A stretch of DNA of 30,942 nucleotides from a virus. The notes under the pieces are model-generated. The model was not told where the DNA came from and made no database searches. It saw nothing but the letters and a program-made list of their open reading frames with translations. The stretch is taken from the IMG/VR virus record IMGVR_UViG_3300022074_000227, positions 1 to 30,942 of that record, one strand, 5' to 3'. Of this stretch, positions 29,751-30,942 are shown in pieces (the first letter of the stretch is position 1; every line of letters begins with the position of its first letter). Position numbers and translations under genes: made by a program.

Positions 29751-29782
29751 TGTATTATCTCCGATAATCAAAAATGGTTAGA

Positions 29783-29800
29783 CAGTAGCTTATGCTACTG
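29783..29800 (-). terminator. hairpin with stop codon in its loop, possible partial terminator
   Basis: On the leftward strand CAGTAGC-ATAA-GCTACTG forms a seven-pair stem whose loop contains the TAA stop of the gene at 29790-30383. A run of five T follows after eight bases. The layout (loop ATAA, delayed T-run) is the same as at 21-42 at the other end of the window. Confidence 0.4.
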
Positions 29801-30383
29801 CCTGATTTGTGTCAAGCATTTCTAACTGCTCTTTAAGAGCAAGCATGAAATCCTTAATGGCTACGCCATTTGTTTCGCACTGGATAAGTGCTTCCAAAGC
29901 AATATCACTAGGTGATAAAGGCTCTGAATTTGCTGTATCAGCTTCGCTGTCTAGTCCAACATTGGACTCTGTATCAGCCTTTGGCTCATCCTGTGTTTCA
30001 GCCTTTGGCTCAGAAGCCTTCTCAGCTTTCCTCATAGCAGCTTGTAAAGCTGTCAGGGATGTAAATCCTTTCTTTGAGGATTGAACAAACTGTCTTGCCT
30101 CAGTTTCGTTTTCAACGAACCAAAGTGCTTCACTTCTTCTACGCTTATCAATTCCATTGATGCCGCAATCCTTTAGCCTTTGGCTAGGGATACGACCATT
30201 GCTTTCTTGCTTGAGAGCAAACATAAGTTTGCCAAGCCTTGTATCAAAGCCATCGGCTTTCGTAGACTTGGTGAAGCGTGATTTATCTGCTTTGCAGATT
30301 GACTTCCATTCTTTGGCAAGGGCAAAGCCTTCAGCTTCAAGAGTGTTGATTTCAGCAGAGATTGTTGCGATTTGGTTTGTCAT
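29790..30383 (-). CDS. first gene of the leftward block, unknown function
   Basis: The 197-residue protein begins MTNQIATISAEINTLEAEGF. Residues about 20-120 are charged and helical, with KLMFALKQESNGRIPSQRLK and GIDKRRRSEALWFVENETEA, which could hold a DNA-binding helical domain. About 125-165 is a Glu/Ala/Lys/Asp linker with repeated PKAET/PKADTE units, and the end is a helical domain. GAGGAG precedes ATG 30383 and overlaps the base of a large inverted repeat, so translation may be controlled. Being first expressed, it could be an early regulator; this is inference. It contains operator-like site 4. Confidence 0.65.
   Translation of the reverse strand: MTNQIATISAEINTLEAEGFALAKEWKSICKADKSRFTKSTKADGFDTRLGKLMFALKQESNGRIPSQRLKDCGINGIDKRRRSEALWFVENETEARQFVQSSKKGFTSLTALQAAMRKAEKASEPKAETQDEPKADTESNVGLDSEADTANSEPLSPSDIALEALIQCETNGVAIKDFMLALKEQLEMLDTNQAVA
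29954..29967. promoter_or_regulatory. palindromic operator-like site 4 (inside a gene)
   Basis: GTCCAACATTGGAC, identical to site 5, is inside the coding sequence at 29790-30383, in the linker region. The flank TAGTCC is shared with sites 3 and 5. An intragenic copy could act as a roadblock or looping site. Confidence 0.5.
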
Positions 30384-30393
30384 TGTACTTCTC

Positions 30394-30474
30394 CTCATTT
30401 GAAGTGTTACTAATAAAAATATCTCTCTCACCCCAAGGGGAGAGATATTATTTATGTAACACGTAACAAATGAG
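30394..30474. promoter_or_regulatory. 81-nt extended palindrome overlapping a ribosome binding site
   Basis: Nested arms pair about one centre: CTCATTTG (30394-30401) with CAAATGAG (30467-30474), GTGTTAC (30404-30410) with GTAACAC (30456-30462), AATATCTCT (30418-30426) with AGAGATATT (30441-30449), and CCCC with GGGG. In leftward RNA the base of this hairpin includes part of GAGGAG, the Shine-Dalgarno of the gene starting at 30383. The inner hairpin is followed by U-rich sequence and could also terminate transcription. It looks like an attenuator or translation switch, or a DNA site for a dimeric protein. Confidence 0.7.
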
Positions 30475-30942
30475 AGAGTATTTGGGGTCGGCCTTTTCGT
30501 GATGCGTCATGATGTGATGTGCCATCCTCTGCCCCTGCCGTTTCGCCTAGGATTGCAGGTAACTACGTTACCGAAATTGGTGCGTGAAACTCGTACATCA
30601 CATGATGAGACCAGCCATGATGAGCAGAACAAATGAAGAACAGCCTTGCTGTTAGGGGGGTGTAGTCCAACATTGGACTTGAGATACCGAAGGTAGGGTA
30701 GAAAAGATGCATCGGCATTGCAACGCAATGACAGTTTTCAAATCCAATCCTTCACATCATTCTTTCAGAATGGCGACTGATAACATAACAGTTGGCACAA
30801 CTGGGATGAAACACATCATCTATTACATCCATAGATGTAGAGGCACATCATCTAGTGGCTAACTGGCTCTGACAGCGCACATCTGGACGCATTATGCCAT
30901 CACATGCACACGCAGTCAGGGGGGCTGGGCAGGGGGCAGGTG
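30475..30942. other. non-coding, repeat-rich region at the window edge
   Basis: No convincing gene lies in these 468 bases. They hold a palindrome GGTAAC-tac-GTTACC (30558-30572), a direct repeat CATGATGAG (30601-30609, 30616-30624), a hairpin AACAG/CTGTT (30639-30653), operator-like site 5, three copies of CACATCAT (30753, 30812, 30844; the last two extend to CACATCATCTA), a hairpin TACATC/GATGTA (30824-30839), and a G-rich end (30919-30940). It may be an origin, a packaging or integration site, or an early promoter region; none can be proved here. Confidence 0.6.
30665..30678. promoter_or_regulatory. palindromic operator-like site 5 (non-coding)
   Basis: GTCCAACATTGGAC sits in the non-coding edge region with flanks TAG and TTGAG. 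It is the outermost copy, about 280 bases upstream of the first leftward gene, and may control early transcription or replication. Confidence 0.55.

Follow-up and report, generated by a model that had tools for sequence, protein, structure and literature searches.

RNase III processes the early RNAs of phages lambda and T7 and can open a hidden ribosome site, for example in lambda cIII and adhE (PMC5371410). The minimum target of the enzyme is about 22 bp of double-stranded RNA (PMC5371410). That the lambda N leader is processed was reported by Steege et al. (1987), as cited in PMC5371410. In phage T4, structure shields GGAG from RegB (PMC3014915). Phages of the HMO-2011 type rank among the dominant groups of marine phages (PMC9038755). 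A text search of PMC9038755 gave no mention of intergenic regions, promoters, hairpins, or RNA polymerase; therefore, early gene control in these phages seems undescribed.

A long palindrome before the first leftward gene of such a phage was analysed together with the same region of its relatives. From the sequences, the locus is best read as a leader module that acts in cis on the early operon, seems undescribed, and consists of two structured elements, E4 and E5; covariation supports this reading.

Source Phage and Gene Organization

The whole stretch of DNA that was analysed (the window) was one IMG/VR record of 30,942 bases. Gene content and DNA similarity assigned it to an HMO-2011-type marine podophage. 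The gene set includes a family A DNA polymerase with a DnaJ-like central domain, a DnaB-like helicase, a primase, a class II ribonucleotide reductase, and a tyrosine integrase. At the DNA level, it resembled Roseobacter phage CRP-1 and Puniceispirillum phage HMO-2011.

Two divergent gene blocks are separated by a non-coding stretch of about 900 nt with several hairpins. The leftward block was as claimed in the preliminary description: it covers about 18.7 kb, from 30383 to 11709, and the ATG of its first gene is at 30383–30381. This first gene of the early block (29793–30383, (−) strand) encodes a mostly helical protein of 197 aa. No Pfam or PHROG family was found for the product, and its predicted helical fold (mean pLDDT 76) had no PDB match at E ≤ 0.001.

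The stop codon TAA of the first gene lies in the loop of a conserved hairpin (29780–29803, (−) strand). The 5′ arm of this hairpin is coding, and its arms change together in many relatives, with a recurring G.U pair. No strong T-run follows it in the window or in most relatives.

Structure of the Leader Hairpin

Nested arms had been described at 30394–30474, and they were present as described. The helix extended beyond these 81 bases. It covered 30391–30478 on the (−) strand, contained 36 pairs with asymmetric bulges, and ended on the Shine-Dalgarno (SD) sequence of the first gene. This long bulged hairpin is E5. The leftward RNA of 30370–30490 (121 nt) folded at −36.8 kcal/mol, compared with −18.7 ± 3.2 kcal/mol for dinucleotide shuffles (z = −5.6), and none of 200 shuffles folded as stably. 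For the 81-nt core on the opposite strand, the z score of the fold was −7.9.

The outer helix P1 is formed by the 5′ arm CTC(T)CTCATTTG (30467–30478, (−) strand) and the 3′ arm CAAATGAGGAG (30391–30401, (−) strand). The 3′ arm includes the SD AGGAG (30391–30395). P2 (GTGTTAC/GTAACAC, 7 bp) follows a TTAC loop on the 5′ side. P2 and the inner stems, which carry 3′-side bulges, occupy 30404–30462 on the (−) strand.

This plan was shared among relatives. The outer part consists of P1 (7–12 bp, at or beside the SD), a 5′-side loop (often TTAC), and P2 (about 7–11 bp). The inner part consists of a 3′-side bulge, inner stems, a second 3′-side bulge that carries GUGA or a like sequence, and a small loop. 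The bulge pattern (5′-side loop at J1, P2 of 7–11 bp, 3′-side bulges inward) recurred without sequence conservation. Across loci, the total length of E5 was 35–50 pairs.

In all loci, the apical stems of E5 were drawn from a few cassettes (CTCTCCCTTTAGGGTGAGAG; ATTAATCACC..GGTGAGTAATTAAT; CCCCTTGAACGTAGTGAAAGGGG) common to otherwise different hairpins. GUGA was found on their 3′ side.

Several known classes of element were considered for E5 and rejected. No family of Rfam 15 reached its gathering score in the window. Whalefall-1 RNA (RF01762) scored 19.7 bits over the 3′ half against a gathering score of 37, and ten relatives gave no match; the resemblance was attributed to chance. In our judgement, a telomere-resolution site was ruled out by the asymmetric bulged loop at the centre, which leaves no symmetric palindrome. 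An integrase attachment site was rejected because the sequence can vary almost without limit and because the integrase gene also occurs in the module-less relatives L101, L102, and L106.

Covariation of the Hairpin

The pairing of P1–P3 was counted in 12 sequences of the window's subtype. A total of 98.6% of 276 cells were paired. Shuffles averaged 78% paired and slid structures reached at most 54%; since the E5 structure was taken from members of the same set, part of the excess over the slid controls is expected. Both-sided changes occurred in 14 of the 23 pairs, with a total of 49 both-sided and 0 one-sided changes. Within P1, 6 of 11 pairs covaried, and the four SD-facing CUC.C pairs were invariant.

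The MAFFT alignment of all subtypes was without a fold, and model R1 built from it carried no pairs. Pairing was therefore counted per subtype and by arm swapping, a test independent of any alignment. In 36 representatives of all subtypes, own arms gave −37.0 kcal/mol on average and combined arms of different phages gave −19.8 kcal/mol. Compensatory changes in relatives, which the preliminary description had named as its own test, were thus found. The conserved helix E5 is likely a leader element of the early operon that has been under selection.

G.U pairs were nearly absent from E5 (28 of 1422 pairs; 13 of 1278 outside the apical pairs). Because of this, the covariation does not distinguish RNA from DNA or show which strand works. 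Covariation free of wobble pairs is unusual for RNA helices. The scarcity may reflect unusually strict pairing or template-switch correction of palindromes, which is a question of its own for a helix that covaries so strongly. The conserved imperfections argue against mere template-switch correction.

Second Element and Distribution of the Module

E4 is a structured element of 70 nt (30524–30593, (−) strand; covariance model R2, 88.3 bits), situated 46 bases upstream of E5. Its hairpin was recovered unprompted by RNAalifold. There were 33 both-sided and 0 one-sided changes. Eleven genomes or records were searched with the covariance model: exactly one copy was detected in each of the 6 that bear E4, and the hairpin-less relatives among them gave no match. 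E4 was not found in Rfam. With its conserved loops and variable stems, E4 looks like a recognition element.

Several alternative hairpin cassettes of E4 (e.g., AAAATATATATGAAATATATTTTT) were swapped among otherwise different leaders. In GU557055 (HMO-2011), the hypothetical genes phage1322_72 and phage1322_73 (53665–53928 and 53776–53907) both fall within the conserved non-coding stretch and are upstream of E4 (53963–54032 in GU557055). These two annotated genes may be spurious.

A scan with the 197-aa protein identified relatives on 34 viral contigs, most of which had a hairpin of E5 build directly before the gene. Dozens of IMG/VR contigs, as well as the isolates HMO-2011, CRP-1, and CRP-345, carried the E5 hairpin in the same place. 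Place and shape were common to these three isolates and about 40 distinct leaders. In each of the 36 representatives, no more than about 20 nt separated the helix end from the start codon. The structure that had been claimed from the window to stand before the early block proved to be conserved, at a constant place directly upstream of the start and on the same strand.

E4 was also searched as a DNA pattern, which matched 58 IMG/VR contigs. One of them (L071) was a chance match and was left out. A long hairpin was present downstream of E4 in 56 of the remaining 57 loci; in the exception, L090, the contig end cuts the locus. The hairpin criterion applied in this count was loose, and 76 of 521 random pieces of those contigs also reached it. 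CRP-2, CRP-3, CRP-207, and HTVC033P were without E4, and their operon heads showed no long hairpin. Records without E4 were also without E5. Protein relatives carried as prophages by bacteria were considered and rejected: against GTDB genomes, the E4 pattern gave only two matches, in unrelated organisms, which were judged to be chance from the titles alone.

In L015, L017, L025, and L026, a promoter-like TTGACA-N17-TTACRA pair together with a small SD hairpin took the place of the module. The module is therefore not indispensable. In L083 and L099, it preceded a different first ORF, still against the SD of that ORF, and the 197-aa homologue came later. E4–E5 thus belongs to the operon start and not to the 197-aa gene. 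Autoregulation by the 197-aa product was rejected because the module stayed at the operon head when other ORFs led.

Three further elements were conserved in the leader region. E1 consists of CAGTTG/CAACTG inverted elements (CAACTGTTATGKTATCAGTTGCCAT; 30770–30803, (−) strand; 26-leader alignment). E2 is a small hairpin followed by TGCCGATGCAT (30707–30731, (−) strand), conserved upstream. Both were conserved even in relatives without E4–E5, and a promoter or operator is a possible identity for them. E3 is the palindrome AGTCCAACATTGGACT (30664–30679, no strand assigned), which varied in position. AGTCCAACATTGGACT also occurred inside the first gene, at 29953–29968, and similar palindromes were seen in other leaders.

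Proposed Function and Alternatives

E4–E5 is very probably a control switch within the phage's own message, as judged from its sequence features. We tentatively favour, with slightly less than even confidence, a two-part cis-acting leader in which E5 would be the 3′ half and E4 the other half. It would act by RNase III-type processing and gating of the ribosome site. Transcription of the leader would precede that of the first early gene, and in the RNA E5 would form a single long bulged helix with its end exactly at the ribosome site. This helix would most likely be cut by host RNase III or a comparable double-strand nuclease. The cut would separate the operon message from the leader, and the ribosome site would be freed or trimmed. 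In the window's subtype, the uncut helix would hide the SD, and cutting or unfolding would turn translation on. E4 would probably serve as the recognition site for a protein or for the transcription machinery.

A sequence-independent double-strand nuclease would be the simplest reader of E5, because the helix is very long and free in sequence, has conserved bulges, is linked to E4, and ends at the first ribosome site. With 35–50 bulged pairs, the helix exceeds the 22-bp minimum of RNase III.

The state of the ribosome site differed between subtypes. In the predicted fold of the window's leader, the SD AGGAG was wholly paired, with a mean unpaired probability of 0.18. The unpaired probability was 0.00–0.18 in the window's subtype and 0.25–0.70 in the other subtypes, where the SD was just outside the helix and half open. 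The sequestration of the ribosome site that had been read from the window therefore stood for the window's subtype and did not extend to the others. Since the SD is half open there, SD masking cannot be the shared function.

These values bear on a translation switch without cutting, in which a phage or host protein or refolding would open the helix that hides (window's subtype) or flanks the SD, and ribosome access alone would control the first gene or the operon head. The fully paired SD of the window's subtype agrees with such a switch, as do the invariant CUC.C/GGAG pairs beside covarying pairs. Small CGGAG hairpins that display the SD of other early genes also make ribosome-site structure a theme in these phages. 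However, masking was not common to the other subtypes, and 35–50 pairs far exceed what masking of an SD needs. An autoregulatory form is further opposed by the module keeping to the operon head, and not to the 197-aa gene, when new ORFs are inserted. We regard a switch of this kind as unlikely, though a serious candidate.

A DNA-level element, with extruded or single-stranded-DNA hairpins at a replication origin or control region between the divergent blocks, was considered rather improbable. The non-coding stretch with its several hairpins would suit such an element, and the covariation of both E5 and E4 was free of wobble pairs. However, the small SD hairpins, which are read most naturally as mRNA, were equally poor in G.U (5 near-misses vs. 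57 perfect hairpins), so the absence of wobble is no particular sign of DNA. The recurrence of asymmetric bulges and internal loops in E5 counts against a DNA-level role, and so does the tight coupling of the helix end to the first SD even with a different first gene.

Promoter-like boxes were found in some leaders. A TTGACA/T box was located between E4 and the hairpin in about 7–8 of 36 representatives (7 with TTGAC[AT]), with 0.9 expected. The -10-like hexamers lay inside the 5′ arm. The spacing from the box to TATAAT, TATCTA, TATCTC, or TATCTT was 15–17 in five phages (L057, L023, L027, L063, and HMO-2011). Because the box lies between E4 and E5, some transcripts in box-bearing phages may start inside the 5′ arm or lack it, and in some phages transcription from a proximal promoter may begin near P2. 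Promoter choice could then set the state of the SD: transcripts from an upstream promoter would carry the full helix with a closed or flanked SD, and those from a proximal promoter (-10 in the 5′ arm of P1) would leave the SD free. Such a promoter-choice switch was judged improbable, for no sigma-70-like -35 box was present in the window or in most relatives, and the complementarity of P1 was kept even where the box exists.

An attenuator or intrinsic terminator at the inner stem, also suggested in the preliminary description, is hardly credible: the U-rich run is real in the window (UUUUU after the inner stem) and a pattern scan gave a terminator on the opposite (+) strand, but a run of at least 4 T on the 3′ side occurred in 1 of 36 representatives, the window itself, and the outer helix would form over the run. 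A conserved intrinsic attenuator, defined by a G+C-rich stem and a U-run, was rejected on this count.

If the leader reading is right, E4–E5 would be a leader RNA family absent from Rfam and present in the growable isolates HMO-2011, CRP-1, and CRP-345.

Hairpins at Other Ribosome Sites

Small hairpins were also found at later ribosome sites. In the window, the loop of ATTATC-GGA-GATAAT (29754–29768, (−) strand) displays the second gene's SD. Before ORF starts, 57 of 124 distinct CGGAG sites were triloop hairpins of 5 or more Watson-Crick pairs. Elsewhere, 9 of 163 were such hairpins, and several examples shown of these 9 also precede ATG. The hairpins had a GGA triloop and 5–7 bp, displayed the SD, and were present at many loci. 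L017 carried five early genes with CGGAG SD hairpins (2990, 3641, 4210, 4554, and 4764). Control of these sites by a phage-encoded protein of the CsrA/RsmA kind was considered, but no CsrA homologue was found in 8 phage records.

HMO-2011-type phages might share a group-wide, structure-based translation programme, with E4–E5 at the operon head and CGGAG hairpins at later early genes; at present this is a speculative and rather doubtful proposal. If it is true, early expression would be co-ordinated by one shared regulator or nuclease able to recognise hairpins at ribosome sites.

Comparison with Known Leaders

Control of T4 early mRNA by RegB at GGAG ribosome sites, by RegA, and at the gp43 operator hairpin is similar in that it is post-transcriptional and acts at the ribosome sites of early genes. 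T4 belongs to a different phage group, and the analogy is limited to the CGGAG hairpins. The msiK motif is a bacterial leader with the ribosome site in a basal helix; its phylogeny, gene, and sequence differ from those of E5. The RNase III sites of T7 and T3 early mRNA are likewise long imperfect helices near early gene starts. In contrast to these sites, E5 occurs once per genome, is linked to E4, and comes with much more covariation data.

The lambda N leader (nutL, RNase III hairpin, N ribosome site) has the same order as the leader described here: a conserved element, then a long hairpin before the first SD. The two also differ. No boxA-like sequence was present in 85 leaders (400 nt), and none was found in the window's leader with one mismatch allowed, so the lambda nut/boxA system was rejected. 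In our judgement, E4 is unlike lambda boxB in size and shape. Lambda N is an antiterminator, whereas the first gene here encodes a helical protein of 197 aa without a match. By position and length, E5 would fit a candidate RNase III hairpin between a recognition element and the first ribosome site, as in the lambda N leader. On the favoured reading, the E4–E5 module would work like the lambda N leader.
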